Assembly (NCBI RefSeq): GCF_000314005.1 | Contig: NZ_JH980292.1 | Span: 730,517 to 794,516 of the forward strand | DNA: 64,000 nt | Direction: 5' to 3' | Origin: Spirulina subsalsa PCC 9445 | Lineage (GTDB): Bacteria; Cyanobacteriota; Cyanobacteriia; Cyanobacteriales; Spirulinaceae | Part shown: positions 163 to 22,432 of the stretch, piece after piece | Numbering within the stretch: position 1 is the stretch's first letter | How the letters are laid out: each line of letters opens with the position of its first letter | The notes under the pieces: model-generated | What the model was told of the DNA's origin: nothing | The model's input: the letters and a program-made list of their open reading frames with translations, nothing else | Databases searched by the model: none | Position numbers and translations under genes: made by a program

Positions 163-2019
163 GTGAGAATTCTTCTGATTGAAGATGACGAGACATTGGC
201 CCAACTGTTGACCGAGACTCTGATCAGTAATTACTATCTGGTAGATCATGCAACAGATGGTCAGACGGGATGGGATTTGGCGGAGGCTTTTGAATATGAT
301 CTGATTCTGTTAGATTTTCTGGTTCCCCAAATCAATGGCTTGGAGTTTTGCCAACAATTGCGCAAAAAAGGCGATCGCACTCCCATTTTACTGATGACTG
401 GAGATCAAAGCCAGACCCGCAAGGTCGCCATTTTAGACGCGGGGGCTGATGATTATTTAAGCAAACCCTTTAATTTAGAGGAATTATTAGCCCGAGTGCG
501 CGCCCTCCTGCGACGGGGCAGTGATGTCACCTTACCCGTCATAGAATGGGGAAATCTCCATCTTGACCCTAGCAGTTGTATTGTCACCTTTCAAGGGCAG
601 CCTTTACGGTTAACGGCGAAAGAGTACCAAATGTTGGAGTTATTCTTACGCAACCGAGAACGGATTTTTAGTCAAAGCGCCTTACTTGATAGTCTTTGGT
701 CTTTTGATGATCCCCCTTCTGAAAATGCTGTACGCACCCAAATTAAGAGTCTACGGCAAAAGTTAAAACGGGCAGGGGCGGGGGATGTCATTGAGACATT
801 ATACGGTTTAGGGTATCGTCTGAAAGTGCCTGATACAGCCAACCCTAAACCAACAGCCCCCAAGGAGTCGGAGAGCAAAACCCCGACCAACACCATACCC
901 AGTTATATGGTGAAAATTTGGGAGCGCAATCGGGAGAAATATGATCAACGGATTGATACTATTGAACAGGCGATCGCGGCTTTACAGATTAATCCCAATG
1001 ATGGGGAATGGCGGGACAAAAGCCAGCGAGAAGCCCACACTCTAGCGGGATCTTTGGGCAGTTTTGGCCTCCACGCCGCCTCAGAACAAGCCCGAGTGAT
1101 TGAGCAGTATTTACAGGAAGCATCCCCCAATTTGCCCCAACTCTCCCTAGCGGTGAACCATTTGCGGCAACTCCTCCATCCCGTCCCCCAAGGGGCAACC
1201 GAGGCCTCCATTAGCCCGCCCCCCGTCCTCTCCCAGGAAAAAGCCTCTCTGCTCATTGTGGATCATGATGTGGCGTTAACCGAAATCTTGAGTCAGGAAG
1301 CGCAACGCTGGGGAATGACAGTGCGCACCGCTTACAGTGTAGATCAAGCTCGAAATGCGATCGCCCAAGCCAAACCCGATATCATTCTACTCGACCTCCA
1401 CTTTCCCACCGAACCCGGAGCCGGCTTTGAACTGCTGACAGAACTCGCCTCACCCAAGAACAAAATTCCCGTCGTAGTTTTCAGCACCCGAGATGACTTT
1501 GATTATCGTTTAAAAGTCGCCCGTTTAGGGGGGCAAGGGTTCTTACAAAAACCCCTCTCTCCCGTTCATGTCCTAGGCAGCTTACAGCAAGTTCTCCATC
1601 AATCCAATGCCACCGTCGCTAAATTAATGATTGTGGACGACGACCCAGAACTTTTAGACTGTTTAGAGGTCATCTTGAAACCTTGGGGCTTTACTTTAAT
1701 CTTATTGGACGATCCTAAAAAGTTTTGGGAGGTTCTCAAAGAATCGCGTCCTGATTTGCTAATTTTAGACGTACAAATGCCCCAAATTAGTGGCATTGAA
1801 TTGTGTCAAGTGTTACGTAATGATCCCCAATGGTACACTATCCCCATCCTCATTCTCTCAGCCCATCGGGACTCAGAAACCATTCAACAAGTCTTTATGG
1901 CCGGAGCCGATGATTATATTCAAAAACCTATTGTTGAACCGGAATTAATTGCTCGCATTCTCAACCGTTTAGAACGAAGTCAATTACAGCGTCGGGTTGC
2001 CATTTCCGGGAAACATTAA
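163..2019 (+). CDS. Multidomain response regulator REC-wHTH-Hpt-REC-REC (locus A)
   Basis: DNA-binding response regulator with an internal phosphorelay module. The frame is open from an ATG at 49, but I place the start at GTG 163. An AGGA lies just upstream there, and the protein then opens directly with the first REC strand (VRILLIEDDE), giving 618 residues. Order: REC1 (about 1-115, phospho-acceptor Asp51), OmpR/PhoB winged helix (about 130-225), Hpt (about 250-350, His292 in AHTLAGS), REC2 (about 365-480, Asp411), REC3 (about 490-605, Asp536). All three receivers keep the acceptor Asp and a C-terminal Lys (KP). It precedes the giant kinase at 2232, its likely partner. It is a clear paralogue of the regulator at 17664, which has the same order plus a GGDEF domain. 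DNA target and signal are unknown. Confidence 0.9.
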   Translation: MRILLIEDDETLAQLLTETLISNYYLVDHATDGQTGWDLAEAFEYDLILLDFLVPQINGLEFCQQLRKKGDRTPILLMTGDQSQTRKVAILDAGADDYLSKPFNLEELLARVRALLRRGSDVTLPVIEWGNLHLDPSSCIVTFQGQPLRLTAKEYQMLELFLRNRERIFSQSALLDSLWSFDDPPSENAVRTQIKSLRQKLKRAGAGDVIETLYGLGYRLKVPDTANPKPTAPKESESKTPTNTIPSYMVKIWERNREKYDQRIDTIEQAIAALQINPNDGEWRDKSQREAHTLAGSLGSFGLHAASEQARVIEQYLQEASPNLPQLSLAVNHLRQLLHPVPQGATEASISPPPVLSQEKASLLIVDHDVALTEILSQEAQRWGMTVRTAYSVDQARNAIAQAKPDIILLDLHFPTEPGAGFELLTELASPKNKIPVVVFSTRDDFDYRLKVARLGGQGFLQKPLSPVHVLGSLQQVLHQSNATVAKLMIVDDDPELLDCLEVILKPWGFTLILLDDPKKFWEVLKESRPDLLILDVQMPQISGIELCQVLRNDPQWYTIPILILSAHRDSETIQQVFMAGADDYIQKPIVEPELIARILNRLERSQLQRRVAISGKH

Positions 2020-2170
2020 ATGGGGAACGGGGGGAGCAGGGGAGAGGTAATAGGTAATAGGCAACCTTAACAAGTTAAGCTTGTGTGCATTTTGTCAAGT
2101 CCCATATATAGAGTTCTACAAATTGGACAACACCATTTATAGACTATTCAGGATTGGACACAACCGCATT

Positions 2171-2228
2171 TTCCTGACTCCCGATTCCCGATTCCCGATT
2201 CCCGATTCCCGACTCCCCGTTCCCTCCT
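2171..2228. repeat. Heptanucleotide (STRR-type) tandem repeat
   Basis: Imperfect tandem copies of a 7-base unit, CCCGATT or CCCGACT, fill the space just before the kinase gene. Short tandemly repeated repeats of this kind are typical of filamentous cyanobacteria. The same units recur near 46260-46530, 55585-55665 and 61220-61255. The rest of 2020-2231 is noncoding. It holds a G-rich stretch near 2022-2050, and the sequence at about 2158-2185 is nearly repeated at 43103-43130. Confidence 0.85.
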
Positions 2229-2231
2229 AAT

Positions 2232-5200
2232 ATGCTTGAACCCTTACCCTTAACCCTCGATCAATTTCTCAGCACCTTTCCCAGACATCTCTTCTGGATT
2301 GATGTATCAGAACGTGAGATCCGGCCCTTGCCCCAGACAGCAGACCAGCCTGACTCAGACCATTTTTCCCTGCTCCTAAAAGCCTTTGAGCAGAAATCGG
2401 AATTTTGGCAGATCGTGGACTGGGTAAACACCCAACAGCAAGCCCAACCCTTCTCCTATAGCTTCCCCAATCAAACCCACTTTAGCGCTCAAATTAGCCC
2501 CTGCACCCCTGGGAACGTCCTTTGGGTTGCCCAAGAGGTAACAGCCTTACAACAGCCCTCACCGCCCCCCTCGCCCCCCTCACAAGACTTTGAGCAACTG
2601 GTCGTTACCCTCTTAAATAGCTTTGTCCATCTGCAAGACCCGTCCGAACTCGACCAAACCATTCAACAAGCCCTCACCCAAACCCTACAATATACGGGCT
2701 TTGACCGCAGTTTCATCATGTTATTTTCCGAAGACGGACAGGAGGGGCATTTAGCCTATGAAGCTTGTCGTCCCGGCGTTCCCTCCGCCACCCCTCGGCG
2801 CACTTTACCCACCGAACCCTTTACCTGGTGGATGGAAAAAATGTATCGGCAAGAAATCATCGAAATTGCCAACCTTGACCAACTACCGCCCCAAGCCACC
2901 CCAGAACGGACGGTTTTAGAAAGTGCGGGAATACAGTCCCTCGTCGTCGTTCCCCTGATCTCCCGACAAGAAACCCTCTGGGGGGCGCGCTACACCTTGG
3001 GTTACGTGGGCTTTTCCAGCTTTCAACGGGAGAAAACTTGGTCCAGCCAGACGGTTTCCTTACTGCGTTTAGTGGGGGATTTATTTGCCCAAACCCTTGA
3101 ACGTTACTCCACCGTTACCGCCTTACAAAATACAGAACAGCGCTTTCATGCCATCTTTGAACAAACTTTTCAGTTCATGAGTTTGTTAACCACAGAAGGG
3201 GTAATCTTAGAAGCCAATGCCAGCTTTTTAAACTGGGCTGAACAAACGGCCGTCGAGGGCAGAATGTTGTGGAGTATGCAGATTTTTCAAAATGCCCAGG
3301 TCACACTCTGTCCGTCCTCTCCCATCACCTCTGCCCAAGAGACGGGCGGGCGAGAAACGAGGGGGAATTGTCCCTTAACGTTGAATTATTGTTCCTTATC
3401 CCGAGAGGTTATCGAGCGAAGTCGAGAGGCAGAAGAAGGCTCCCACGCCTGTTTACAGAAGGACGGGACTGTATCCATTGAGCAGCAATTACAGTTAGCC
3501 ATTCAGCAAGCGGCCGGGGGGCAATTAGTGCGCTGTGCCTTGAAGGTGCGCCCCCGTTTTCAAGACCCCCTGAGCGCCGACCTAGAGTCTGAGGGACTGA
3601 CTCCTTCCCTTTATCTGGCAAACACTATCTATAAACAGGGTCAGTCCCCGGATTATCAAGAACGGATTTTTGACTTCTCCCTGAAACCTGTGCGAGATCA
3701 TGCCGGGGAGGTTCAATTCTTGATTATCGAGGGTCATGATATTACGGACCACTACCGGGCGGTGGAACAAATCCGCTTTCAAGCGGATTTACTGGATGTG
3801 GTGGAACAGGCGGTGATTGTTACGGATTTTGAGAGCAAGATTTGTTATTGGAACCGCTACGCGGAAAAACTCTATGGTTGGTCGGCCGAGGAGGTGCTAG
3901 GGCGTTCTTTATTTGAGACGGTGGCGAATACGGACGCGCAAGCGGTCGGCCGGGAGATTATGGCTAGTCTGGAACGGGGGGAAAGTTGGTCGGGGGAATT
4001 TTGGGTGCGCCATAAGGATGGCTCAAGCTTTCCCGCTTGGGTGATGGATTCTCCCATTGCCGATGACCAGGGGAATCTGGTGGGGGTGATTGGCATTTCT
4101 ACGGATATCACGGAACGCTTAGAAGCGGCGGCGGCCTTACAACAGAGTGAGGAGTTATTCCGGGTGACGTTTGAACAGTCTCCTATCGGGATGTTAGTAC
4201 GACCGTTGGATGGGGGGCCGAATCGTCCAAATCAGGCGTTGGCGAAGTTATTGGGGTATAGCCTCGAAGAATTAGAGCATATCACCTATCACGACTATAC
4301 CCACCCGGAGGATTTGCCCTTAGATATCCGATTAGATGAACAGTTGGTGCGGGGGGAAATTTCGGACTTTCATTTAGAAAAACGCTATATCTGTAAGGAC
4401 GGACAGGTGGTTTATACCTTGCTGCACTGTGCTTTAGTGCGGGATGGTGAGGGTCTTCCCCATTATGTAATTGGGCAGGTGGTGAATATTACCGAACGCA
4501 AGGAGAAGGAGACGGCCTTACAACAAAGTGAGGAACGGTGGCAATTAGCCCTACGGGGGACTCATGATGGAATTTGGGATTGGAATGTCCGCACGGGGGA
4601 GGTGTTTTATTCGGATCGTTTATTAACCATGTTGGGCTATGAACCGGGGGACTGGGAAAATAGCTTAGAAGCTTGGACTGGGCGCATTCACCCGGCGGAT
4701 TATGAGGCGGTGATGCAGGCGTTAGAGGAGCATTTAGCCCAAAAAACGCCCTATTACATTACGGAACATCGGGTGCGCTGTCAGAATGGGGAGTATCTCT
4801 GGATTTTGGATCGGGGTCAGGCTTTGTGGGATGAAGAGGGGCAAGCGGTGCGAGTGGTGGGGTCCCACACGGATATTGGCGATCGCAAACGATCCGAAGT
4901 AGCCCTCCAACGCGCCAACCGCGCCCTAAAAACCCTCAGTGATTGTAACCAAGCCCTCGTTCACGCCGACACCGAAGAAGCCCTCTTTCAGCAAATCTGC
5001 GAAATTATGGTAGCCGTGGGCGGATACCGTCTGGCTTGGGTGGGTTATCCCGAATATGACTCCGCCCAAAGTGTCCGCGTCGTTGCCCAAGCGGGTTGGG
5101 AAGCGGGCTATTTAGATCAACTTCAAATTACTTGGGCCGATCGAGAACGAGGCCGAGGCCCGACGGGAATCGCTATCCGCACCGGAAAACCCGCCGTTTT

Positions 5201-8042
5201 CCAGAATATCCTCACCGACCCTAATTATGCCCCCTGGCGAGAAGAAGCCCGTAAGCGAGGCTATCGTTCCTCCATCGCCATCCCCTTAAACCAAAGTTAT
5301 CAAAACCTCGGTCATTGGCTTCAAGAGAGTAATCAGCAAGCAGAGAAAGGAGACTCCATGGCAGGGAGTTTTCCCCCTCCCCTCCCTCTAACCCCCGCTA
5401 TGGGAGTCCTAAACCTCTACTCCACGGAGCCCGAAGCCTTTGATGAGGCTGAAGTGCAACTGCTCTGTGAACTGGCCAACGATTTAAGCTATGGCATCAT
5501 GGCCTTACGCACCCATCGCGCTCAGATTGAAAGTGAGGAGAAATTCCGACAACTGGCGGAAAATATCGAGGATGTATTCTGGATGAGTCGCATTGATGGG
5601 ACTCAAATGCTCTATGTCAGTCCAGCCTATGAGCAGATTTGGGGTCGTTCTCGTCGGGAACTTTATCAAAACCCCCAGGCTTTTTTTGCCGCCATTCACC
5701 CGGAAGACCAACAACGGGCAATCTCCACCATTCGCAACCCCCAAAATTTACGCTTTGATCTCGAATATCGCATTATCCGACCCGATGGAAGTATACGCTG
5801 GGTCTGGGATCGGGGGTTTCCGATTGTGGATCGGGACTCGCGGAAAGTGTACCGTCGGGCAGGCATTGCCAAAGACATCACCGAGCGCAAACAAGCCGAA
5901 CAAATGCTTCATGATGCCAAGGAGGAGCTAGAGTTACGGGTGGCCTACCGCACGGTGGAATTAGAAACCGCCAACGAACGCCTACAAAATGAGTTGATGC
6001 AGCGTCACCGGACAGAAATGAAACTGCGCAAAAGTGAGGAACAGTATCGAACCTTAGTGCGCAATTTCCCCAAGGGAGCGGTTTTCTTGTTCAATCAAGA
6101 CCTGCGCTATACCATTGCTGATGGGGTGGGGTTAGCCCCTCAAGGTTTATCCCGGGAACAGTTGGAAAATCGAATGATTTGGGAGGTTCTACCGCCGGAT
6201 TTGTGCCGGGATGTAGAACCTCTCTATTACGCGGCTTTGGCCGGAGAAACCCGCAGCGTGGAAATTGAGTATCAAGGGCGTTTGTATTTTTATCAAGCTC
6301 TCCCGGTGCGCAATGAACAGGGAGAAGGCTTTGCAGGCATGATTGTAATGCAGGATATCACCGAGCGCCAACAGGCCGAAGCCGAACGGAATCAACTGAT
6401 TGCCATTATTGAGGCCACCCCAGATTTTATCTCTTCTGTCACTCCCGACGGTGAGATTGTCTATATGAACCAATCAGCACGGCAAATTTTGGGGGTTCCG
6501 TCGGATAAATCCCTCTGGAATCAAGAGGAAACACCACCCCATCCTTTACCTTGGGGGAAGGGGGGCAAAACGAAACGTTCTTTTCATAGTCAGCGCTTCT
6601 CTTCGGCTTATCCTCAGTGGGCGGATCATCTCATTCGCTCAGAAGGGATTCCGACGGCCATTCGGGAGGGAACTTGGATCGGAGAAACGGCGATTTTGAA
6701 CCATGATGGCCAGGAAATTCCCCTGTCTCAGTTGATTATTGCTCACCGTTCTTTACGGGAGGGGGAGAGAATGGGGACGGTGCAGTTACTCTCAACGATT
6801 GCCCGGGATATTAGTGAACAGAAACGCAGTGAGGCCACTTTGCGGGAGTCGGAACGGCGCTGGCGTAGTTTTTTGGAAAATATTCCTCTGTTAGTGGTGA
6901 ATTTAACCCCGATGGGCAAGGTGGATTATGTGAATCCCTATTTTTTAAAACTGACAAGTTATAATAAGGCGGAAGTGATGGGACAGGATTGGTTTGAGTT
7001 TTTCCTCCCCCCAGCCCAGCGCCCCAGTACCCATCACCATTTTGAGGCGATGCTCCATGATGCGGGGCAACCGCGCTATGAGGAGTCGTTATTAACCAAG
7101 TTTGGGGAAGAACGGCGGATTGCTTGGAATAATACGGTGTTGCGGGATTCTCAGGGTCATGTGGTGGGGACGTTGAGTATTGGGGAGGATATCACGGAAC
7201 GCTACGCGGTGGAACGGATGAAGGATGAGTTTATTTCGGTGGTGAGTCATGAACTGCGCACTCCTTTAACCTCGATTCATGGGGCGTTGAATCTACTGGC
7301 GAGTGGTTTGGTCGATTGTAAGTCTCAACGGGGCGATCGCGTGATTCACATTGCTGCCGAAAGTGCAGAACGTCTGGTGCGTTTGGTCAATGACATTCTG
7401 GAGTTAGAACGTCTCGAATCGGGCAAAATTAAACTGATTACCCAACAGGTGAATAGTGCAGATTTACTGGTGCGAGCCACAGAACAAATGCAGGTGATGG
7501 CTAATCGTTCTGGGATTCGCTTGGAGGCGAAACCCCGTGAAATTGACTTTGAAGCCGATGCGGATCGCGTGATTCAGGTTTTAACCAATTTGTTGAGTAA
7601 TGCGATTAAGTTCTCCGAGGCCGATAGTACAATCTGTTTATCGGTGCAGGGGATTCCCGATGATGCCGATCATCTCCTAGCTCTCCAAAGTCAAGATCCT
7701 GCGCGGCGTTTCCCGGATTCTTTAACCATCCCGGATCACTGGCTGAATTTACCCACCTCTGATTCTGCGGCTTGTGTCTTATTCTCTGTGCAGGATCAGG
7801 GTCGAGGGATTCCAACAGATAAAATCGAGAGTATTTTTGAGCGCTTCCATCAAGTGGATGCCTCGGATTCTCGAAAAAAAGGAGGCACGGGTTTAGGGTT
7901 AGCAATTTGTCGGAGTATTGTGGAACAACATGGCGGACAAATTTGGGTGCAAAGTCAAGTCGGACAAGGGAGTTGTTTTTTCTTTACGATCCCTTTGAGC
8001 AGAGAGATTAACCCTCTAGAGCCAAAGCATAGGCAATCTTAG
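2232..8042 (+). CDS. Giant soluble multi-PAS/GAF sensor histidine kinase (locus A)
   Basis: Histidine kinase of 1936 residues with no obvious membrane segment, so probably cytoplasmic. Approximate order: GAF (117-293), PAS (303-503, enlarged by an insert), PAS (520-628), PAS (640-756), PAS (764-886), GAF (910-1090), PAS (1100-1220), coiled coil, PAS (1268-1380), PAS (1388-1530), PAS (1543-1656), HisKA (phospho-acceptor His1673 in VVSHELRTPL), HATPase (about 1773-1926, with GRGIP and GGTGLGLAI). Several PAS units end in the usual DITER-type motif. No receiver domain is attached, so phosphate must pass to a separate protein, most simply the regulators at 163 and 8095. Three low-complexity stretches (near residues 357-415, 1033-1057 and 1432-1446) look like in-frame inserts. 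Bound ligands or chromophores cannot be told: no phytochrome Cys motif was recognised in the GAF domains. Confidence 0.92.
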   Translation: MLEPLPLTLDQFLSTFPRHLFWIDVSEREIRPLPQTADQPDSDHFSLLLKAFEQKSEFWQIVDWVNTQQQAQPFSYSFPNQTHFSAQISPCTPGNVLWVAQEVTALQQPSPPPSPPSQDFEQLVVTLLNSFVHLQDPSELDQTIQQALTQTLQYTGFDRSFIMLFSEDGQEGHLAYEACRPGVPSATPRRTLPTEPFTWWMEKMYRQEIIEIANLDQLPPQATPERTVLESAGIQSLVVVPLISRQETLWGARYTLGYVGFSSFQREKTWSSQTVSLLRLVGDLFAQTLERYSTVTALQNTEQRFHAIFEQTFQFMSLLTTEGVILEANASFLNWAEQTAVEGRMLWSMQIFQNAQVTLCPSSPITSAQETGGRETRGNCPLTLNYCSLSREVIERSREAEEGSHACLQKDGTVSIEQQLQLAIQQAAGGQLVRCALKVRPRFQDPLSADLESEGLTPSLYLANTIYKQGQSPDYQERIFDFSLKPVRDHAGEVQFLIIEGHDITDHYRAVEQIRFQADLLDVVEQAVIVTDFESKICYWNRYAEKLYGWSAEEVLGRSLFETVANTDAQAVGREIMASLERGESWSGEFWVRHKDGSSFPAWVMDSPIADDQGNLVGVIGISTDITERLEAAAALQQSEELFRVTFEQSPIGMLVRPLDGGPNRPNQALAKLLGYSLEELEHITYHDYTHPEDLPLDIRLDEQLVRGEISDFHLEKRYICKDGQVVYTLLHCALVRDGEGLPHYVIGQVVNITERKEKETALQQSEERWQLALRGTHDGIWDWNVRTGEVFYSDRLLTMLGYEPGDWENSLEAWTGRIHPADYEAVMQALEEHLAQKTPYYITEHRVRCQNGEYLWILDRGQALWDEEGQAVRVVGSHTDIGDRKRSEVALQRANRALKTLSDCNQALVHADTEEALFQQICEIMVAVGGYRLAWVGYPEYDSAQSVRVVAQAGWEAGYLDQLQITWADRERGRGPTGIAIRTGKPAVFQNILTDPNYAPWREEARKRGYRSSIAIPLNQSYQNLGHWLQESNQQAEKGDSMAGSFPPPLPLTPAMGVLNLYSTEPEAFDEAEVQLLCELANDLSYGIMALRTHRAQIESEEKFRQLAENIEDVFWMSRIDGTQMLYVSPAYEQIWGRSRRELYQNPQAFFAAIHPEDQQRAISTIRNPQNLRFDLEYRIIRPDGSIRWVWDRGFPIVDRDSRKVYRRAGIAKDITERKQAEQMLHDAKEELELRVAYRTVELETANERLQNELMQRHRTEMKLRKSEEQYRTLVRNFPKGAVFLFNQDLRYTIADGVGLAPQGLSREQLENRMIWEVLPPDLCRDVEPLYYAALAGETRSVEIEYQGRLYFYQALPVRNEQGEGFAGMIVMQDITERQQAEAERNQLIAIIEATPDFISSVTPDGEIVYMNQSARQILGVPSDKSLWNQEETPPHPLPWGKGGKTKRSFHSQRFSSAYPQWADHLIRSEGIPTAIREGTWIGETAILNHDGQEIPLSQLIIAHRSLREGERMGTVQLLSTIARDISEQKRSEATLRESERRWRSFLENIPLLVVNLTPMGKVDYVNPYFLKLTSYNKAEVMGQDWFEFFLPPAQRPSTHHHFEAMLHDAGQPRYEESLLTKFGEERRIAWNNTVLRDSQGHVVGTLSIGEDITERYAVERMKDEFISVVSHELRTPLTSIHGALNLLASGLVDCKSQRGDRVIHIAAESAERLVRLVNDILELERLESGKIKLITQQVNSADLLVRATEQMQVMANRSGIRLEAKPREIDFEADADRVIQVLTNLLSNAIKFSEADSTICLSVQGIPDDADHLLALQSQDPARRFPDSLTIPDHWLNLPTSDSAACVLFSVQDQGRGIPTDKIESIFERFHQVDASDSRKKGGTGLGLAICRSIVEQHGGQIWVQSQVGQGSCFFFTIPLSREINPLEPKHRQS

Positions 8043-8094
8043 CCTACAATGCTCTAGGTGACGGGCATGAGAAAATGCTTTTTCCCCAATCAAA

Positions 8095-8484
8095 ATGACT
8101 ATGACCAATCCAAAACGAGTTTTAGTGATTGATGATGATGATGGAGTGCGGGAGATTATCCAAATTTGTTTAGAAGCGGCCGCCGGGTGGGAAGTGGTGA
8201 CGGCGGCTTCAGGTCAGGAGGGTTTAGAGTTAGCCCAAACCGAACAGCCTGATGCGATTCTGTTGGATGTGATGATGCCGGAAATGGACGGCCCGACGAC
8301 GTTCCGCAAACTCTGTGCTATTCCTGAAATTTGCAATATTCCCACGATTCTCCTCACGGCGAAGGCTAAAATTAGTGAGAAGGAACAGTTTATTAATTTG
8401 GGTGTTACGGGGGTGATTACGAAGCCCTTTGAAGCTCAGGATTTAGTAGACCAGATTTGCGCCATTTTAAAATGGGAGAATTGA
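8095..8484 (+). CDS. Single-domain response regulator (CheY-like)
   Basis: A 129-residue stand-alone receiver. It shows VIDDDD at the N-terminus, acceptor Asp58 in ILLDVMMP, the conserved Thr in LLTAKA and Lys in ITKPFE. There is no output domain, so it works by protein contact or as a phosphate shuttle. It lies 52 bases after the giant kinase on the same strand and is probably co-transcribed, which makes it a likely direct partner. The start may be the ATG at 8095 or the one at 8101 (MTMTNPKR against MTNPKR). The sequence does not decide. Confidence 0.9.
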   Translation: MTMTNPKRVLVIDDDDGVREIIQICLEAAAGWEVVTAASGQEGLELAQTEQPDAILLDVMMPEMDGPTTFRKLCAIPEICNIPTILLTAKAKISEKEQFINLGVTGVITKPFEAQDLVDQICAILKWEN

Positions 8485-8493
8485 GAACGCATC

Positions 8494-8793: not shown

Positions 8794-8821
8794 CCCGTCA
8801 CGCACCCCCCTGTTTTTTGGT

Positions 8822-11143: not shown

Positions 11144-12730
<1,587 letters not shown>

Positions 12731-12733
12731 TCA

Positions 12734-13600: not shown

Positions 13601-14189
13601 GTTGGTATATCTCCTAAATGATAGGTCGTTTAAAGGGTTGGGAGTTTTTCTAGTTGTTTCTCTTGATTGCATTATTGACCAAGGGAATCACTCTTGGAAA
13701 GGGGGGCAAAAAATGAATCGGGGTGATAATCGGGGTTTTTAGCTCTATTTAAGTTTAATAGAGAATCTCAGTTATTAGAAACTGTTTCAAGCTTATTTAA
13801 AGTTTTATTCTTTATTTTTTGTTTTTTATTATATTAATATAGTACAATAAAAAATAATGCCTAAAGTTGAAGCTCTATCCTCACGCTGGAACGCTATCCC
13901 AGCAAGGGGAACAGGCTTTATTGCTTTAGGGGTTTGTTCTCTTGAGAATTTTCGATTAAATCCTGAAATTGGCGGAATTTAGTCTCTGGTTTAGGGGATT
14001 GCTGAGTAGGATTAGCACAAAAAAGCCCCCCGAAAACGTTATTCTGGGAGGATTTGGGCTGATTTTCAACGGGTTTTTAGGGAGTCAAGGGGAGAGGTAA
14101 AGAATAATTACATTTTGAAAGTTCGGACAATGGGGAAGTAGGCTTTCTTGACCTGTTTAGGCTGTGTAGCTTTCTCCCACATCTGACTT
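13601..14189. other. Long noncoding region upstream of chlL
   Basis: About 590 bases. The part nearest chlL (13601-13680) is its leader. It is followed by a very AT-rich block (about 13785-13856) that suits a promoter. From 13858 a 41-codon frame beginning MPKVEALSSRWNAIPARG is open, but no family is recognised. It could be a relic of a mobile element. A hairpin at 14019-14060 is listed separately. Nothing else is clear. Confidence 0.5.
14019..14060 (-). terminator. Possible terminator after the FHA gene
   Basis: Read on the minus strand, AGCCC is complemented by GGGCT, followed at once by TTTTT. An alternative pairing is CCTCCC with GGGGGG. It lies about 130 bases past the stop of the FHA-domain gene. 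The loop is long and the stem short, so confidence is moderate to low. Confidence 0.4.
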
Positions 14190-14636
14190 TCACTCTAAGT
14201 TGGTGGGAATGTCGGGGTGATTTTCAACGGGGGTATTTCTTAAATTTAGGAGGGTATTTCGTTCCACAGAGGGATCTGGAGTTGAGGCAGAAGGCGATCG
14301 CCGATTGACCACCTTTCCTAACTTCGCGGGATCATTTGCCCCTAAACGGATGAGCAGCTTGGGCCCGGACTCTCCTAAGCGGATAATCATGCCATCCACT
14401 ACCCTAGCTTGGGTAATTGATTTTCCGTCGATATAGGTTCCGTTGGCCCCAAAGTTAATCAATTCCCACTTCGACTCAAAATTTTGTAATTCAGCGTGAC
14501 GACGGGAAACTACTGCACTATATAAAACAACGTCATTCTGGTTGCCTCGTCCTAAACGGACGACGCTTTCAGAATCAAATAGCCAACTTTGCACGGGGGT
14601 AGATTGGCTCGGATGCAGTAAAGTTAGGGTAATCAC
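14190..14636 (-). CDS. FHA-domain protein
   Basis: Protein of 148 residues with a forkhead-associated domain (about 1-100), a phosphothreonine-binding module. Visible hallmarks are RLGRGNQND (the GR motif), SRRHAEL (the SxxH motif) and NGTYIDGK (the NG motif). The C-terminal 45 residues are low in complexity and probably unstructured. It starts 77 bases after the stop of the M56 peptidase gene on the same strand and may be the third gene of that transcript. It implies Ser/Thr protein kinase signalling, but no kinase gene of that type is nearby. Confidence 0.85.
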   Translation of the reverse strand: MITLTLLHPSQSTPVQSWLFDSESVVRLGRGNQNDVVLYSAVVSRRHAELQNFESKWELINFGANGTYIDGKSITQARVVDGMIIRLGESGPKLLIRLGANDPAKLGKVVNRRSPSASTPDPSVERNTLLNLRNTPVENHPDIPTNLE

Positions 14637-14713
14637 CGCAGTTTATAACCAATTAGGTTGAGGATTGCATGAGGATTGAAACAATCGCTACACACTAGCC
14701 ATCATAGTACAAC

Positions 14714-15577
14714 TTAACAATGGAAGGGAATGACTAAAAGTGGCAAAAAAGCGGCAATTAACCAACTCCACGCCCACCAAGGGAGATGATAGGGGGGTTG
14801 GGGTTCGTGGAGTAGGGCTTCAATCCGTTCTTGTAGGCGATCGCGCAAAATCGGCCGTTGAATCGTTGCGCTAATACTGGCGGGAGTCAGGAGGGGCGCA
14901 CTAACCACCATTAACAGCGACTCAGCTAATAATAAACCATCTACCGATTGAGTCGCCCAACGATCAGCGCGTAATTCCCGTAATAAAAGCAATTCCTCCC
15001 AGAGGGCTTGAGTACTGGGCAGCCAAGGGGTGAGATGGCGTAAACAGCCTAACCAGAAAAACCAAAAGGTATCCCGATAGTAAATATGGGCTTGTTCGTG
15101 GCGTAACACGGCGTTAAGGTGTTCTGCATCTAAAGTTTTTAATAAACCTTGACTTACGACTAATTGCGGTTGCCAAAATCCCACCTGAGCGCAAAATAAG
15201 CCCTCACTGTCTAAAAGATAAGCCCGAGGGGCAGGAGGGGCGAGTTTAACCCGAGGGTAGGATTGGATGGTTTCTAGGGATTTGCCCCCTGCTAGGGCTT
15301 GTTTTAGGGGGATAGAGAAGGCAATCAGGAGGAAACCGAGAACCGCACCATAACTGAGGGGATCTGTGGGCATTCCCATCATTTTCCCTTGGGGTCCCAT
15401 ACAAAGAACTGCGATCGCCGTCATCACCAACAACAAGGGGGGCAGGGTAAAAACAATCATCGCCCCCACCCAGCGCCTAGACCAACCCGCTTTAGACCCA
15501 GAATCTGGGCAGGGGGTCCAACTGTAACGAATGGAAACAGCAACAGCGAGGACGAATAAACTCAAGAGTAAGTGCAT
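14714..15577 (-). CDS. M56-family (BlaR1-like) membrane metallopeptidase
   Basis: Integral membrane zinc peptidase, 287 residues. Hydrophobic segments lie near residues 1-17, 38-60, 75-92 and at the C-terminus. The zinc motif is HEQAH (160-164), followed by ELRADRWA, which gives the third ligand. It lacks the extracellular beta-lactam sensor domain of true BlaR1/MecR1, so the signal is different or unknown. Its ATG overlaps the stop of the BlaI-type gene (TAATG), which is strong translational coupling. In this arrangement the peptidase usually destroys or inactivates the paired BlaI-type repressor. That role is inferred from family knowledge, not shown here. Confidence 0.85.
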   Translation of the reverse strand: MHLLLSLFVLAVAVSIRYSWTPCPDSGSKAGWSRRWVGAMIVFTLPPLLLVMTAIAVLCMGPQGKMMGMPTDPLSYGAVLGFLLIAFSIPLKQALAGGKSLETIQSYPRVKLAPPAPRAYLLDSEGLFCAQVGFWQPQLVVSQGLLKTLDAEHLNAVLRHEQAHIYYRDTFWFFWLGCLRHLTPWLPSTQALWEELLLLRELRADRWATQSVDGLLLAESLLMVVSAPLLTPASISATIQRPILRDRLQERIEALLHEPQPPYHLPWWAWSWLIAAFLPLLVIPFHC

Positions 15578-16002
15578 TAGGACTCCTTCTCCTCCCGGGC
15601 TTGACGAACCGCTTGTAAACGATGGGCGATCGCCTGAATTTGCTCCAGACTCGCACTATCGAGACTATCGGCAAAAGCCGCCACAATATCCGGGTTACTC
15701 ACCGCCAGAAAACGATTAAATTGTTCATAAGCAAACAGGACTTCCGCCTCCTCCTGACTCATACGAGGCGACCAAGAAAACGCCCGTCCTCGTTTCCGAG
15801 AGGTTAACCAGCCCTTTTTCTCCAAACGTTGTAAAACCGTAGTCACAGAAGTATAGGCCAGTTCTCGGTCTGGATCCGCCAAAATCCGTTCATGAATATC
15901 TTTCACCGTAGCAGACCCCAATTGCCAGACCCAGTGTAAGATTTCCTTTTCCAACGGGCCTAGGGAGAGTTTTTGGGGACGATGATCAGGCAGAGGAGTC
16001 AT
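15577..16002 (-). CDS. BlaI/MecI-family transcriptional repressor
   Basis: Protein of 141 residues with an N-terminal winged helix (about 10-80) of the penicillinase repressor family. Typical features are LGPLEKEILHWVWQLG and TSVTTVLQRLEKKGWL. The C-terminal helices should mediate dimerisation. It is the first gene of a translationally coupled pair with the M56 peptidase and probably represses its own promoter upstream of 16002. Target genes beyond the pair are unknown. Confidence 0.9.
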   Translation of the reverse strand: MTPLPDHRPQKLSLGPLEKEILHWVWQLGSATVKDIHERILADPDRELAYTSVTTVLQRLEKKGWLTSRKRGRAFSWSPRMSQEEAEVLFAYEQFNRFLAVSNPDIVAAFADSLDSASLEQIQAIAHRLQAVRQAREEKES

Positions 16003-16028
16003 ATCAAGTTCTCAATATAGCGAATACA

Positions 16029-16368: not shown

Positions 16369-16398
16369 ACAAGGGGCGTGTAAAATCACGCCCCTTGT
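16369..16398. terminator. Strong hairpin terminator after the lipoprotein gene
   Basis: A perfect 12-bp stem, ACAAGGGGCGTG with CACGCCCCTTGT, around a 6-base loop. On the minus strand it is followed by TCTTGG and on the plus strand by TTCTTC. It lies 69 bases past the stop of the small lipoprotein gene, for which it is the likely terminator. Confidence 0.75.
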
Positions 16399-16466
16399 TT
16401 CTTCACAATTTAATTCTTCAATAGAAAAATTAAGCTGCAATCAGATAGCCTAGGATAGATCCTAAT

Positions 16467-17621: not shown

Positions 17622-17663
17622 TGTGACACTACATTACTTGTCCTTATATTTCGTGATCCTATC

Positions 17664-20048
17664 ATGAAAATTTTAGTTGTTGAAGATGATCCAGTCACAG
17701 GGGACTTTTTGACACGATTATTAACTCAACACCATTATGTAATAGACCGAGCAATAGATGGTCGTAGCGGCTTGGATTTAGCCAGCAGTGCAGACTACGA
17801 CCTCATTCTGTTGGATTGGTTAATCCCCCATCTTGATGGCCTAACCCTCTGCCGTCGTTTGCGTTCGAGTGGCTACCAAAAGCCCATCTTACTGTTAACA
17901 TCTAAAACCTCCCATCAGGATGTCGTCGCCGGATTTGAGGCTGGGGCGGATGATTATGTCACCAAACCCTACACCCCCTCAGAACTCCTCGCCCGTATTC
18001 GCGCCTTACTCCGACGGGCAGCCCATCCCCTGAACCCCAAAATCCTGCGCTGGGGAGAGCTTTGTTGTAATCCCGCCACCGCAGAAGTCACCTATCAGAA
18101 TCAACTAATCTCCTTAACCCATAAGGAATATAACGTCTTACAACTTTTCTTAGAAAATCCTCAACGGGTCTATAGTCGGAGTGCCATTATTGATCGGCTG
18201 TGGTCAATGGATCATTGTCCGACAGAAAGCGCCGTGACAACACTAATCAAAGAAGTACGCCGTAAATTGCGGGTGGCCGGGCTACCCATTGATCCCATTG
18301 ACACCTTATATGGTCTGGGCTACCGTTTAAAGCCCCAAGAAGCCGCCCCCCCTATCCCCAATTTATCCACCCTCAAAACCGACAAATTAGCCCGCTTGGT
18401 GACGGTTTTAAAGCAGTATCAGGACAGTTTTCATGAGCAGGTACAGCTTTTAGACAAAGCGGCAGAAGCCCTGAAGGACAACACCCTGACTCCAGAATTG
18501 CACGAACAGGCCAAAATCAACGCCCACAAACTAGCCGGAAGTCTGGGTACCTTTGGCTATCCGATGGGGTCAGAAATAGCCCGAAAATTAGAGGAACTTC
18601 TCGGCCGAGAAACTCCCTATACAGCGCTCGAATCGGTTTATTTTAGTAATCAAGTTACTCAGTTAAAACATATTCTCTGCTGTCCTCCTCGTCTTGATGA
18701 CGAAACCGGACAATTGCCCACCCCCTTAGTTTTAGTGGTTGATGATGACCTGAACTTAACCAGTCAGTTAATGCGAGAAGCGACCCAGTGGGGGGTGAGA
18801 ATTGAGACTGTCCAGACCATTGAAGAAGCGCGACAGTGGTTAAAACAACGATTACCCGATGTCATCTTGCTAGATTTAGTCTTTTCCGAAACCGAACAAA
18901 ATGGCTTGCAATTTTTGGATGAATTAACCCATCGCCTGCCCCAGATTCCGGTGTTAATGTTTACAGTGCGAGGGGGATTAGGCGATCGCATCACCGCCTC
19001 CCGTTTAGGCGCGAAAGGCTTTCTCCATAAGCCCATTGCCCTCCCCCAAATCGTCCAAACCATCACCCCCCTCCTTCTCCCCCCCACCAGCACCGATGCT
19101 AAAGTGATGATCATGGATGATGATCCCCTCACCCTCAAAACCCTCCGCAGTTTATTGGAACCGTGGGGACTCGAAATTACCACCATTAAGCACCCCGATC
19201 AATTTTGGGAAGCCCTCACCCAAACTGCCCCCGATTTATTGATTCTCAACCTAGAAATGACCGTTGTCCAGAGTCTCGAACTCTGCCGCGTTGTGCGTCA
19301 AGATGCCGAATGGGGCGATTTACCTATTATCGGCATTACAGATCGTTCACAAGCCCAAGCCATTCAAGAAGTTTTCGCGGCTGGCGTAGATGATTTTATT
19401 GGGAAGCCCGTAGTCGGCCCCGAATTAGTGACTCGTGTTCTCATTCGCATTGAACGGATTCAACTCCAGCACCAACTGAAAACCCTACAACATCAAGAAA
19501 AACAAAAATTACAATATCAAGCCCGCATTGACGGGTTAACCCAAATCGCCAATCGTCGTCACTTTGAGGAATATTTACAACAAGTTTGGTTACAACATCA
19601 CCGAGAAAAAGAATCTTGTAGCTTGCTATTAGGGGATCTAGACTACTTCAAACTCTACAACGACACCTACGGTCATTTAGCCGGAGATCGTTGTTTACAA
19701 ACCGTTGCCCATCTTCTCAATAGCTCCCTAAAGCGCCCCGGTGATTTATTAGCCCGTTACGGAGGAGAAGAATTTGCAATTATATTACCAAAAACCAATT
19801 TAACCGGGGCCGTTCGTGTCGCTCAACGCATCCGAGACAAACTCAAAAAAGCCGATATTCCCCATATCAAATCCCCCGTTTGTGATGCCGCCGGAATTCC
19901 CTATGGACGGGTAACAATGAGTCTAGGAGTCAGCAGTGGAATCCCTCAAGGAAATCAGTCTTTAGATCAATGGCTGCACATTGTCGATCAGGCCTTATAT
20001 GAAGCCAAGGCACAAGGAAGAGATCGGTTTGTCTGTCTGCCCTGGTGA
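17664..20048 (+). CDS. REC-wHTH-Hpt-REC-REC-GGDEF response regulator (locus B)
   Basis: A 794-residue regulator that combines a DNA-binding domain and a diguanylate cyclase in one chain. Order: REC1 (1-115, Asp51), OmpR-type winged helix (about 128-225), Hpt (about 237-330, His288 in AHKLAGS), REC2 (about 352-465, Asp404), REC3 (about 475-595), GGDEF (about 630-790). The cyclase site is intact (GGEEF 700-704), and a c-di-GMP inhibitory site RPGD (691-694) sits exactly five residues before it. In REC3 the acceptor position is Asn529 (LLILNLEM), so that receiver probably cannot be phosphorylated, although its acidic pocket and Lys remain. It is a paralogue of the regulator at 163. The kinase at 20273 is the likely partner. 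Confidence 0.93.
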   Translation: MKILVVEDDPVTGDFLTRLLTQHHYVIDRAIDGRSGLDLASSADYDLILLDWLIPHLDGLTLCRRLRSSGYQKPILLLTSKTSHQDVVAGFEAGADDYVTKPYTPSELLARIRALLRRAAHPLNPKILRWGELCCNPATAEVTYQNQLISLTHKEYNVLQLFLENPQRVYSRSAIIDRLWSMDHCPTESAVTTLIKEVRRKLRVAGLPIDPIDTLYGLGYRLKPQEAAPPIPNLSTLKTDKLARLVTVLKQYQDSFHEQVQLLDKAAEALKDNTLTPELHEQAKINAHKLAGSLGTFGYPMGSEIARKLEELLGRETPYTALESVYFSNQVTQLKHILCCPPRLDDETGQLPTPLVLVVDDDLNLTSQLMREATQWGVRIETVQTIEEARQWLKQRLPDVILLDLVFSETEQNGLQFLDELTHRLPQIPVLMFTVRGGLGDRITASRLGAKGFLHKPIALPQIVQTITPLLLPPTSTDAKVMIMDDDPLTLKTLRSLLEPWGLEITTIKHPDQFWEALTQTAPDLLILNLEMTVVQSLELCRVVRQDAEWGDLPIIGITDRSQAQAIQEVFAAGVDDFIGKPVVGPELVTRVLIRIERIQLQHQLKTLQHQEKQKLQYQARIDGLTQIANRRHFEEYLQQVWLQHHREKESCSLLLGDLDYFKLYNDTYGHLAGDRCLQTVAHLLNSSLKRPGDLLARYGGEEFAIILPKTNLTGAVRVAQRIRDKLKKADIPHIKSPVCDAAGIPYGRVTMSLGVSSGIPQGNQSLDQWLHIVDQALYEAKAQGRDRFVCLPW

Positions 20049-20272
20049 AAAGTGATGAGAACTGGTGAGAACTGATGAGAACTGATGAGAAGTAATCAAC
20101 AGTTTGTGAAAATGTCTGTGAAAATGTCTGTGAAAATTTCGTGAAAATTTCCTAGAGAGAACCGGCTCAGTCTTCCCCTCGTCGCCCCCCTATTCTACCC
20201 TGCCCTCCTGAATGGTTACAATCAGAGAATGAATTGCTTCGGTTGTACTCCTCGCCAATTTAGGATTACCGG

Positions 20273-22432
20273 ATGTCCAATATACCAGATGAAACCGCCC
20301 AAGCCCTTCGCACGAGTGAAAACAGACTCCGTTTAGTCACCAATGCCTTACCCGTTTGTATTTCCTATATCGATCGAGAATTGCGCTATCAATTTGCGAA
20401 TCAAACCTATCAAAAATGGTTCGGACGCTCCACTGATGAAATTATCAATCAATACCTCTGGGATGTTATTGGTCAAGTTGCCTATGAAAACATAAAATCT
20501 AAGGTTGATCAAGTCTTACAAGGGCAAACGGTAGAATATGAAACAGAAATGGTTTATAGCCCTAATCATATTCGTTATGTTGCCGCTACCCTCGTCCCTG
20601 ACCTAGGAGAAGATGGTCAGGTCTTGGGGTATTATGCCCTAATTGAAGACCGCTCCAATCAACGCAAAACAGAAGCCGAATTAAAAGACTTAGCGCAACG
20701 AATGTTAACGGTGATTGAAACGGTGGGGGAAGGGATTACCCTGAGCAATTTAGGGGGAGAATTTATGATTCTCAACTCTAAATTAGAACAAATTACAGGC
20801 TACAGTCGGGAAGAAGTGAGAAGTTTTCAAGACTTCTTGATTTATCTTTATCCGAATCTACAAGAACGACAACGAGTTGCCCAAGAAATTCAAGATGTTT
20901 TACGGGTTGGAGTGCGAGAAAATATCGAAACCCAAATTGTTACTAAATCTGGTAAGCGCAAAACTTTATTAGTCTCTACTTCTCGCCTAGAAATCAATAA
21001 CGAGCCTTGGCTATTGAGTGCCTATCGAGACATTACAGAACGTCAAGTGATTGAATTACAACTACGGGATAGTGAAGCACGATTACAGACCATTGTCAAT
21101 AACACTTTTGATGGAATTTTAATCGTAGATAGTCAAGGAATTGTACGCTTTGCTAATCCGGCCGTTACCCGTTTATTTAATAAATCCATTGAGCAAATTA
21201 TGGGGAGTGAATTGGGTCGTCCTATTGTAGTAGGAGGTTCAGCAGAAATTGAGCTACATTCTCGGGGTCAAGAAGTCAAATATGCAGAAATGACGGTGGC
21301 TGAGGCGCAATGGGAAGGGGAGAATGTTTACATTGTTTCCTTACGAGATATTAGTGAGCGAAAACAGGCTGAACGAGCTTTACGCGAGAGTGAGGAACGG
21401 TTTCGTCGGGCTTTTCGCGACTCTGCTATTGGTATGGCATTAGTGACAATTGAGGGGGAATTTTTGCGGGTCAATCGTTCTTTATGTGAAATTTTAGGCT
21501 ATAGTGAAGCGGAGTTTAGCCACTTAACCTTAAAAGGGATTACTCACCCAGAAGATTGGTCAATGAGTGAGTGTTATCAACAGCAAATTATCCGGGGAGA
21601 AATTCGCTACTATCAACAAGAAAAGCGGTATTTTAATCGGCACGGTCAAGCGGTTTGGGTGTTGGTTTCTGCGTCTTTGGTGCGAGATAGTGAGGGACAG
21701 CCTTTATATTTGATTGCCCAAGTGCAAGATATTAGTGAACAACGGGCAATTGACCAGATGAAACATGAATTTATTTCTGTGGTCAGTCATGAGTTACGCA
21801 CGCCTTTGACGGCCATTGAGGGGGCTTTAGGGTTATTAGCAACGGGGATTTATAACAATAAACCGGAGAAAGCCCAACGAATGTTAGAAATTGCCCGGAC
21901 AGATTGCGATCGCCTTGTCCGCTTGGTCAATGATATCCTGAGCTTGGAACGCTTGGACTCGGGACAGTTTCAGTTAGAGATGGCCTCCTGTTCCGTGGCC
22001 CACTTAATGAAACAGTCCGTCGAGGTGATGCAGGCGATCGCCAGTACAGTTCCCATTACCCTGACCACCCAACCCCTAGAGGCTCAAGTTTGGGCTGAGG
22101 CTGACTCCATTTTACAAACCCTAACCAACCTCTTGAACAATGCCATCAAATTTTCCCCACCCCATACCACCGTTACTGTCTCAGCCCAAGATTATGGGGC
22201 CAGCATCTGTTTTTGTGTCCAAGATCAAGGGCGTGGCATCCCCCCCGATAAACTACACAGCATTTTCCGCCGTTTCCAACAAGTGGATGTGTCCGATGCC
22301 CGTCAAAAAGGAGGCACAGGATTAGGACTTGCCATCTGTCAGAAAATTATTGAACAACACGGAGGACGAATTTGGGCAGAAAGTCAACTAGGACAAGGAA
22401 CTTGTTTTTATTTCACCCTGCCTAAAGCTTAG
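20273..22432 (+). CDS. Four-PAS soluble sensor histidine kinase (locus B)
   Basis: Histidine kinase of 719 residues, no membrane segment. Four PAS units (about 10-130, 142-262, 268-365, 372-490) precede HisKA (His506 in VVSHELRTPL) and HATPase (about 605-718, with GRGIP and GGTGLGLAI). Its catalytic part closely resembles that of the giant kinase at 2232: H-box and following helix SVVSHELRTPLT, LVRLVNDIL, and the phrase QKGGTGLGLAI. It has no receiver and should phosphorylate a separate regulator. The gene 225 bases upstream is the obvious candidate. A TAGGA precedes the ATG. Confidence 0.92.
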   Translation: MSNIPDETAQALRTSENRLRLVTNALPVCISYIDRELRYQFANQTYQKWFGRSTDEIINQYLWDVIGQVAYENIKSKVDQVLQGQTVEYETEMVYSPNHIRYVAATLVPDLGEDGQVLGYYALIEDRSNQRKTEAELKDLAQRMLTVIETVGEGITLSNLGGEFMILNSKLEQITGYSREEVRSFQDFLIYLYPNLQERQRVAQEIQDVLRVGVRENIETQIVTKSGKRKTLLVSTSRLEINNEPWLLSAYRDITERQVIELQLRDSEARLQTIVNNTFDGILIVDSQGIVRFANPAVTRLFNKSIEQIMGSELGRPIVVGGSAEIELHSRGQEVKYAEMTVAEAQWEGENVYIVSLRDISERKQAERALRESEERFRRAFRDSAIGMALVTIEGEFLRVNRSLCEILGYSEAEFSHLTLKGITHPEDWSMSECYQQQIIRGEIRYYQQEKRYFNRHGQAVWVLVSASLVRDSEGQPLYLIAQVQDISEQRAIDQMKHEFISVVSHELRTPLTAIEGALGLLATGIYNNKPEKAQRMLEIARTDCDRLVRLVNDILSLERLDSGQFQLEMASCSVAHLMKQSVEVMQAIASTVPITLTTQPLEAQVWAEADSILQTLTNLLNNAIKFSPPHTTVTVSAQDYGASICFCVQDQGRGIPPDKLHSIFRRFQQVDVSDARQKGGTGLGLAICQKIIEQHGGRIWAESQLGQGTCFYFTLPKA

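Follow-up and report, generated by a model that had tools for sequence, protein, structure and literature searches.

RcaC-type response regulators, PAS kinases and an RcaF-like receiver in Spirulina subsalsa PCC 9445, with a GGDEF domain in one regulator

Two genes encoding multidomain response regulators, here termed A and B, are found in a 64,000-nucleotide stretch (the window) of the Spirulina subsalsa PCC 9445 genome, and each is followed by a gene for a PAS-containing histidine kinase. The arrangement raises the question of whether these are two copies of one self-contained locus or parts of wider phosphorelays. Regulators A and B are members of the already known RcaC kind of cyanobacterial response regulator, and they represent old, separate branches and not a local duplication.

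Gene and domain organization of the two loci

The features of the two loci are the following.

163–2019, plus strand: regulator A; start codon GTG at 163, open frame from ATG 49, end at 2019
163–519, plus strand: regulator A REC1; phospho-Asp codon 313–315
541–828, plus strand: regulator A wHTH
916–1188, plus strand: regulator A Hpt; phospho-His codon 1036–1038
1243–1605, plus strand: regulator A REC2; phospho-Asp codon 1393–1395
1618–1980, plus strand: regulator A REC3; phospho-Asp codon 1768–1770
2232–8042, plus strand: kinase A, 1936 amino acids; GAF, PAS array, HisKA, HATPase; HisKA His codon 7248–7250
8095–8484, plus strand: single-domain RcaF-like receiver, directly after kinase A; phospho-Asp codon at 8266
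17664–20048, plus strand: regulator B, REC-wHTH-Hpt-REC-REC-GGDEF
17664–18020, plus strand: regulator B REC1; Asp51
18045–18335, plus strand: regulator B wHTH
18405–18689, plus strand: regulator B Hpt; His288
18723–19082, plus strand: regulator B REC2; Asp404
19098–19460, plus strand: regulator B REC3; Asn529 in place of the phospho-Asp
19527–20039, plus strand: regulator B GGDEF; I-site RxxD (RPGD) at R691, GGEEF from residue 700
20049–20272, no strand: intergenic stretch from regulator B to kinase B; by eye, it contains short tandem repeats
20273–22432, plus strand: kinase B, 719 amino acids; PAS, HisKA, HATPase; HisKA His codon 21788–21790

By Pfam, each regulator has three Response_reg domains, one Trans_reg_C and one Hpt, with an additional GGDEF in B, and the two align over 618 columns with 40% identity (E 7e-157). 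The domain order REC-wHTH-Hpt-REC-REC and the extra GGDEF at locus B, both given in the first-pass annotation, are thus borne out. The phospho-Asp residues of the first and last receivers and the Hpt His are all present in regulator A; at the same three sites of regulator B (REC1 Asp, Hpt His, REC3 Asp), REC3 has Asn529 instead. This loss of the phospho-Asp from the last receiver of B had not been remarked on in the first-pass annotation.

Pfam and a simple hydropathy scan agree with the earlier description of a soluble PAS kinase after each regulator in the window, as no transmembrane-like stretch is seen in kinase A or B (top 19-residue means of 1.18 and 1.08). Genome-wide, the cores closest to that of kinase B are those of kinase A (51% and 64%, in two pieces; the HATPase core of kinase A has an insertion relative to kinase B) and of a kinase at C2:989737-990429 (55%), with the next best at 38%. 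Five non-Rca kinases were scanned with Pfam: kinases A and B, the kinase parts of L045 and L056, and L040. PAS domains are present in all five and GAF in three (kinase A, L045 and L040).

The approximately 9 kb between the loci encode a dynamin-like GTPase, chlN, chlL, an FHA protein, an M48/M56-type peptidase and a BlaI/CopY-like repressor, and the neighbor scan confirms that the intervening genes are unrelated. Photosystem or phycobilisome genes are not among the ten neighbors scanned. The gene at 8095–8484 had gone unnoticed. A two-part system of regulator and kinase had been proposed, and both parts are indeed present, but the third part, the RcaF-like single receiver, was missed.

Phylogeny and partner assignment

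The regulators scanned comprise 105 proteins with wHTH and Hpt; 90 of these, which have REC1 and two later receivers, are in the tree and 15 are left out. Domain profiles for the relatives were made from the domains of the window regulators and their paralogues, not from Pfam, and active-site letters were read from alignments to these profiles, which can be out of register where a receiver is highly degenerate. Trees are of the "quick" type with SH-aLRT support only. Genome and member counts are lower bounds, as three candidates were scored per genome at E 1e-80 and 100 stretches around matches were taken; short copies L010–L039 were excluded as duplicates.

Of 386 sampled genomes, at least 53 encode the full REC-wHTH-Hpt-REC-REC order, which is the RcaC order; contrary to the first-pass annotation, it is not unusual among cyanobacteria. 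There are four full-length paralogues of the regulator in the genome: A and B in the window, and C and D elsewhere. A split with SH-aLRT support of 99 separates A from B, and forcing them together costs 148 log units (AU p 6e-7, on a 45-row subset of the 90). A recent local duplication is rejected on these grounds. A and B are not each other's closest relatives, the outcome that the first-pass annotation had named as refuting its view, and the notion of two paralogous copies of one locus gives way to four paralogues, with A and B in different clades.

All 105 members keep the Hpt His, and 104 of them keep the REC1 Asp; the REC2 phospho-Asp is absent from 21 of 90. A kinase does not always follow the regulator: one is found on the same strand in 41 of 80 unfused five-domain relatives, and none is within 1.3 kb in 30 of the 90 five-domain members, although six of the 105 members have less than 2.5 kb of downstream sequence and a kinase there could be missed. 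Regulator and kinase are fused in one protein in 10 of 90, and all 10 have an RcaF-like receiver within 8 kb. Both kinase and RcaF-like receiver are near in 51 of the 90.

The nearest matches to the receiver at 8095–8484 are single receivers from further clade-A loci (60–75% identity); those of the RcaC-clade loci L117, L136 and L118 come next, at 56–59%. Four RcaF-like receivers in the genome score above 100 bits, and the next scores 78 bits. In the receiver tree, built from only 127 columns and weakly supported at many forks, one of the four sorts with clade-A and one with clade-B receivers. The four are assignable to A and B and, tentatively, to C and D. No RcaF-like receiver was found near regulator B; its partner is most likely the unlinked gene G000:C2:974224-974595, predicted to pair in trans.

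Across relatives, the three parts (regulator, kinase and single receiver) show co-variation. For kinase and regulator trees, the Mantel rho is 0.38 vs a permutation maximum of 0.28 (2000 permutations), with the same nearest partner in 24 of 60 pairs vs at most 6 in permutations. Regulator and single receiver give a rho of 0.46 vs 0.28, and share the nearest partner in 36 of 62 vs at most 5. When kinases are swapped within the same genome only, the correlation averages 0.24 and is as high as the observed value in 39 of 2000 swaps; thus much of the kinase-regulator signal may be species history. In clade-A members L064 and L066 the nearest kinase is from another group and the A-type kinase is further off, and the near upstream kinase of clade-B member L084 is also of another group. 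Matching of the regulator, kinase and receiver trees offers testable partner assignments even for unlinked genes.

Kinase B lies in a 25-row kinase clade (support 95) with 10 of the 11 clade-B-labeled kinases and kinases of sister groups. It pairs with the kinase of L101 (support 86), which belongs to the sister group of clade B, and is not grouped with the kinases of regulator B's closest relatives. A contig search gave six loci: a near-identical regulator (L004), a partial one (L005) and four weaker or partial matches. In the sister genome, also Spirulina subsalsa, regulator B and kinase B are both intact (95% and 94%) but sit on separate contigs, the two having parted somewhere from 20041 to 20219. 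Their adjacency is therefore not fixed. The single receiver of set A is not beside kinase A in that genome. The annotated pairing of regulator with kinase is supported at locus A; at locus B, the adjacency is not conserved in the sister species.

A proposed relay and its alternatives

It is proposed, with moderate confidence, that A and B act as RcaC-kind regulators, each with its own kinase and its own RcaF-like receiver in a multistep relay. The soluble PAS kinase would autophosphorylate on His and pass the phosphoryl group to the Asp of the single receiver (8095–8484 for A, most likely C2:974224-974595 for B). From there it would move to the Hpt His of the regulator and then to the Asp residues of the regulator's own receivers, leading to output, with REC1 phosphorylation governing DNA binding by the wHTH. 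In B, phosphorylated REC2 (Asp404) may, via the dead REC3, pair two GGDEF domains as in PleD, and one relay would supply both a promoter and c-di-GMP. Predicted here are the phosphotransfer steps and their direction, the cyclase activity, the signal and the DNA targets, and also which receiver serves B in trans. The earlier suggestion of internal phosphate routing, based on an Hpt and three receivers in one protein, is supported as a plausible reading.

A somewhat unlikely alternative is that these are ordinary two-component pairs, in which the kinase phosphorylates its neighbor's REC1 directly, Hpt, REC2 and REC3 being a phosphate sink or dimerization parts, and the single receiver serves elsewhere. 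REC1 is the best-kept receiver, many relatives have kinase and regulator adjacent or fused, the regulator and kinase trees agree, and the REC2 phospho-Asp is missing in 21 of 90, all of which fit direct transfer. However, a spectator Hpt would not need the invariant His, and co-variation with the regulator is at least as strong for the RcaF-like receiver as for the kinase. The receiver also lies near every five-domain fusion, in which there would otherwise be no need of a separate carrier.

It is less probable still that locus B is a chance neighborhood and that kinase B serves another regulator. The separation of the two intact genes in the sister genome, the lack of an RcaF-like receiver nearby and the pairing of kinase B with the L101 kinase, not with kinases of the closest clade-B regulators, are in keeping with this; so is L135, the one further relative whose REC3 has Asn, which is of unsure tree position (long branch) and has no kinase found nearby. 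On the other hand, kinase B belongs to the clade that holds nearly all clade-B kinases, and regulator-then-kinase is the usual order in that clade, such that the linked state looks ancestral and the S. subsalsa arrangement derived. A duplicated single locus yielding two self-contained regulator and kinase units, suggested by the same gene order, the sequence identity, the same kinase type and the proximity of the loci, is highly improbable given the well-supported split and AU result, two further paralogues elsewhere, the existence of a third component and a differing regulator B neighborhood in the sister genome.

A more tentative extension of the multistep relay, put forward as a possibility, is that regulator B combines RcaC and PleD in a chimera. 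A single relay, passing by way of the separately encoded C2:974224-974595 receiver, would load two receivers of the same polypeptide: REC1, to control DNA binding, and REC2, to promote c-di-GMP synthesis via the dead REC3 as a PleD-like adaptor. The genome would then contain four RcaC-type relays that work in parallel and insulated from one another, with components that are dispersed but can be paired from their trees.

With both GGEEF and the I-site kept, regulator B probably makes c-di-GMP, and the c-di-GMP branch envisaged for this locus gains support. The combination of DNA binding and GGDEF in one regulator, previously called uncommon, is not so within this family: by our profile, GGDEF is present in 32 of 105 members. 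The motif GG[D/E]EF is found in 19 of these, 12 depart from it, including the paralogue C, and one has no readable motif; a GGDEF domain thus need not mean c-di-GMP. A single ancestral gain of GGDEF is rejected, as at least 12 changes of this label have to be placed on the regulator tree, seven of them forced by starred branches (33 rows are labeled, L097 being included for a separate GGDEF frame beside it, and gain and loss are indistinguishable in this count). An AlphaFold2 model of B from three sequences only is too poor to build on, with pLDDT 58.4, pTM 0.29 and GGDEF below 50.

Comparison with known systems

Residues 480–789 of regulator B match PleD 154–448, and the layout of PleD, a live receiver, a pseudo-receiver and GGDEF (PMC12632262), recurs in B as D404, N529 and GGDEF with GGEEF and the I-site RPGD. 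In B, however, this module sits at the C terminus of a DNA-binding regulator that also has an Hpt, and the score for NCBIfam PleD NF007135 (310.3 bits) is below the cut-off of 474. In Anabaena PCC 7120, CdgK-CdgS is described as a relay via REC and Hpt to a receiver that raises GGDEF activity (PMC9927289). It resembles the proposal for B as a cyanobacterial REC/Hpt relay with GGDEF output, but its Hpt is within the kinase, and the term DNA-binding is absent from the text of that paper. CdgS is ruled out as the nearest relative of B by its different architecture.

The order of locus A (163–8484), regulator, kinase and CheY-like receiver, resembles the rfpB-rfpA-rfpC operon of far-red photoacclimation, in which RfpC is given as a possible phosphate shuttle (PMC4658448). 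RfpA is a knotless phytochrome (GAF-PHY-PAS-HK), whereas Pfam finds no PHY in kinases A and B. RfpB, unlike A and B, is described as having one receiver on either side of the winged helix, and the far-red photosystem gene cluster of RfpABC has no counterpart among the ten scanned neighbors.

RcaC is a regulator of type III chromatic acclimation, best known for the adjustment of cells to light color, and has three phospho-sites: the Asp of the first and last receivers and the His of Hpt. It is described as having a winged helix along with three CheY-like receivers (PMC4390838) and as phosphorylated by RcaE via RcaF (PMC8256508), and all5323 is labeled an rcaC homolog, nothing more (PMC12282138). 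Loci L117, L118 and L107 have the gene order kinase, single receiver, regulator. As the L117 and L107 kinases match RcaE (PDB 7ckv) at 6e-92 and 4e-62, and the L118 kinase core groups with that of L117, we treat the regulators of these loci as RcaC and the single receivers as RcaF. The L117 regulator has all five domains by our profiles; Pfam detects two receivers, wHTH and Hpt, and the middle receiver is degenerate.

A and B differ from these in several ways. They are outside the clade of the L107, L117, L118 and L136 regulators, the REC2 phospho-Asp is kept in A but lost in L117 and L118 RcaC, GGDEF is added in B, and the recognition-helix sequences are unlike that of RcaC. A structure search at E 1e-4 with residues 1–1650 of kinase A gave 35 matches, with no RcaE or cyanobacteriochrome among their names, and Pfam detects no GAF in kinase B. 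A pattern like the L box, to which RcaC binds, occurs six times in the window vs 4.5 expected by chance, no excess. A and B thus have the RcaC domain order but are not RcaC proper (orthologues), being in different clades and with no RcaE kinase alongside. The likeness to RcaE-RcaF-RcaC lies in the regulator domain order, the kinase-core subfamily, the single-receiver family and the three-part set. RcaEFC and RfpABC, both of light acclimation, are the two worked examples in the available literature of relays with such a regulator and a single receiver, and regulator B could show whether a single phosphorelay drives transcription and c-di-GMP from one protein.

Regulators, kinases and a single receiver

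The window (C2:730517-794516 of the 5.3 Mb host genome) carries two regulators, each followed by a kinase, as the first-pass annotation had claimed. The order REC-wHTH-Hpt-REC-REC is seen in both regulator sequences, and GGDEF only in regulator B. A single-receiver gene directly after kinase A had been overlooked.

Features of the two loci and the paralogues elsewhere in the host genome
163 (GTG) to 2019: regulator A, REC-wHTH-Hpt-REC-REC
2232-8042: kinase A, after regulator A
8095-8484: single-receiver gene, directly after kinase A
17664-20048: regulator B, REC-wHTH-Hpt-REC-REC with C-terminal GGDEF
20273-22432: kinase B, after regulator B
C2:299828-301693: paralogue C, with GGDEF
C2:439501-441261: paralogue D, without GGDEF

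Regulators A and B are 40% identical across 618 aligned columns, and a Spirulina subsalsa FACHB-351 protein shares 95% identity with regulator B. The phospho-Asp of the third receiver is Asn in B and Ala in D. The proposed kinship of the kinase cores holds: kinase A is a true relative by score, matching the kinase B core in two pieces (132.5 and 123.5 bits). A third kinase (C2:989737-990429, in a 1794-aa frame) scores 237 bits against this core, and the next match 137 bits.

At the window edge, a plain OmpR-type regulator (L003:10852-11613, minus strand; L-numbers denote stretches taken around family members) is divergent from regulator A and extends into window 1-96, with an HSP70 gene beyond it. 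Immediately 3′ of the locus A single receiver is a dynamin-like GTPase gene (8869-11088, plus strand). Between loci A and B lie chlN and chlL, encoding light-independent protochlorophyllide reductase (11144-13672, minus strand), and genes for an FHA protein, an M48/M56-type peptidase and a BlaI/CopY-like repressor are found consecutively at 14190-16002 (minus strand).

Four paralogues in the host genome

The set had been described as two copies, but the host genome has four full-length members, A to D. In a 90-row regulator tree, A falls in a 14-row set (SH-aLRT 99) with L041, L043, L137, L044, L042, L046 and a GGDEF subclade; the 15-row set (99) that contains B also includes L135, L098, L110, L115 and others. 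A and B lie on either side of a split supported at 99, and RcaC and C/D are in other places. When A and B are forced as sisters in a 45-row subset, the cost is 147.7 log units (AU p 6e-7). These results match the outcome that the first-pass annotation had named as refuting its reading: A and B are not each other's closest relatives.

Paralogue C, whose GGDEF motif is EGDEF, has upstream a REC-HK-REC hybrid kinase gene (L001:5331-9815, minus strand, C included) that belongs to another kinase group. No kinase was found near D among the neighbours scanned. The third kinase is an orphan with REC-GAF/PAS (L040:7723-13104, minus strand; G000:C2:989737-995088) and is of the same group as kinases A and B. 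In the kinase-core tree it clusters with the kinases found close to two C and D relatives, L131 and L069, and it is possibly an unlinked partner of D or C.

The host and the sister S. subsalsa genome are collinear at A (regulator and kinase), C and D. The sister, of the same genus, is called S. subsalsa because it contains the FACHB-351 stretch unchanged (L142 within L004). In this sister genome, regulator B (95% identical) and kinase B (94%) are on separate contigs, with the breakpoint between window 20041 and 20219; A's receiver and kinase A are also on different contigs. As regulator-then-kinase order is frequent among B relatives, the separation of the B genes looks derived. The gap where they part (20049-20272) contains short tandem repeats, and the repeat after the sister genome's regulator B occurs at dozens of host-genome places.

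The family and its partners across cyanobacteria

Matches to A at E 1e-80, some of them partial, are present in at least 72 of 386 phylum genomes (52 of 143 genera), with three candidates scored per genome. From 100 stretches scanned with domain profiles built in this analysis, 105 proteins display wHTH and Hpt. The full five-domain order is found in 90 of these, from 54 genomes, of which 53 belong to the 386 and one is the S. subsalsa record. GGDEF is in the same frame in 32 of the 105, and its motif departs from GG[D/E]EF in C plus 11 other members. Another feature is fusion to a kinase, in 18 of 105 members (L045, L049, L051, L054, L056, L057, L060, L071, L073, L121, L123-L129 and L132), with a single receiver gene adjoining; L045 has the order REC-wHTH-Hpt-REC-REC-PAS/GAF-HisKA-HATPase-REC-REC. 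The Hpt His is present in 105/105 and the REC1 Asp in 104/105. Of the 90 rows in which both later receivers were scored, 21 lack the Asp in REC2 and nine lack it in REC3: 3/32 with GGDEF (B, its S. subsalsa orthologue and L135), 0/10 fusions and 6/48 plain members.

When a kinase is counted within 1.3 kb and an RcaF-like receiver within 8 kb, 51 of the 90 have both as neighbours, nine a kinase only, 11 a receiver only and 19 neither. Whether a kinase always follows the regulator had been posed as a check, and it does not: for the 80 unfused five-domain members, the nearest kinase within 1.3 kb is downstream on the same strand in 41, upstream on the same strand in six, on the other strand in three and absent in 30, a few stretches ending too early to tell.

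In the kinase-core tree (116 rows), kinase A joins the kinases beside L041, L137, L044 and L042, which are A's nearest regulators among paired loci, in identical order. A 25-row clade (95) unites kinase B with the kinases of clade-B regulators and their sister groups; as kinase B pairs within it with the L101 kinase from a sister group (86), it fits its group and not its regulator's nearest kin. Exceptions are L064 and L066, where the closest kinase belongs to a different group and the A-type kinase is further off, and L084, whose kinase is foreign. Regulator and kinase distances correlate (rho 0.38 over 60 pairs vs a permutation maximum of 0.28) and nearest partners agree in 24/60 (maximum 6). 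When kinases are exchanged only between pairs of one genome, 39/2000 swaps attain the observed rho. For regulators and single receivers, rho is 0.46 over 62 pairs (maximum 0.28), with agreement in 36/62 (maximum 5).

The receivers of L041, L137, L042, L044 and L046 share 75, 71, 70, 66 and 60% identity with the window receiver; for L118, L136 and L117 the figures are 59, 57 and 56%. Four RcaF-like receivers exceed 100 bits in the host genome (the next is at 78 bits), and likewise four in the sister genome. On the 86-receiver tree, one host receiver is with clade A, C2:974224 falls with clade B (fork 94), C2:4679369 with L069, a relative of D (87), and C2:1068233 beside the L069 group (83). Since forks are weak, the last two are only tentatively assigned as partners of C and D. 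Each regulator appears to have its own single receiver besides a kinase, and the systems are therefore richer than first described.

Comparison with RcaC, RfpB and PleD

The gene order at L117, L118 and L107 is kinase, single receiver, regulator. Among solved structures, the L117 kinase hits 8k9o (E 5e-108) and the GAF domain of RcaE (7ckv, 6e-92). RcaE is also a match for the L107 kinase, ranked behind 8k9o, and the L118 kinase, placed by the core tree, clusters with that of L117. On these sequence grounds the three loci are taken as rcaE-rcaF-rcaC, and the five-domain order is likewise attributed to RcaC. RcaC is described as having three CheY-like receivers and a winged helix (PMC4390838); Pfam detects only two receivers in the L117 RcaC, the middle one being degenerate. 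A and B are ordinary in kind, of the RcaC type.

RcaE is described as acting on RcaC via RcaF (PMC8256508), and the same kind of relay has been proposed for RfpA-RfpC-RfpB (PMC4658448), encoded by an operon with its genes arranged as at locus A. Given this route and proposal, the best reading is a four-step phosphorelay, whereby phosphate would pass from the kinase His to the single-receiver Asp, then to the regulator Hpt His and finally to a regulator receiver Asp.

PleD of Caulobacter is described as a receiver, a pseudo-receiver and a cyclase, activated by receiver phosphorylation (PMC12632262). Residues 480-789 of B align to PleD 154-448, and B's C-terminal half has the same order of live receiver, dead receiver and GGDEF, with GGEEF and the RxxD I-site retained. 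Judged by its sequence, B is uncommon in one respect: it is an RcaC type joined to a PleD-like cyclase module, with the last receiver dead.
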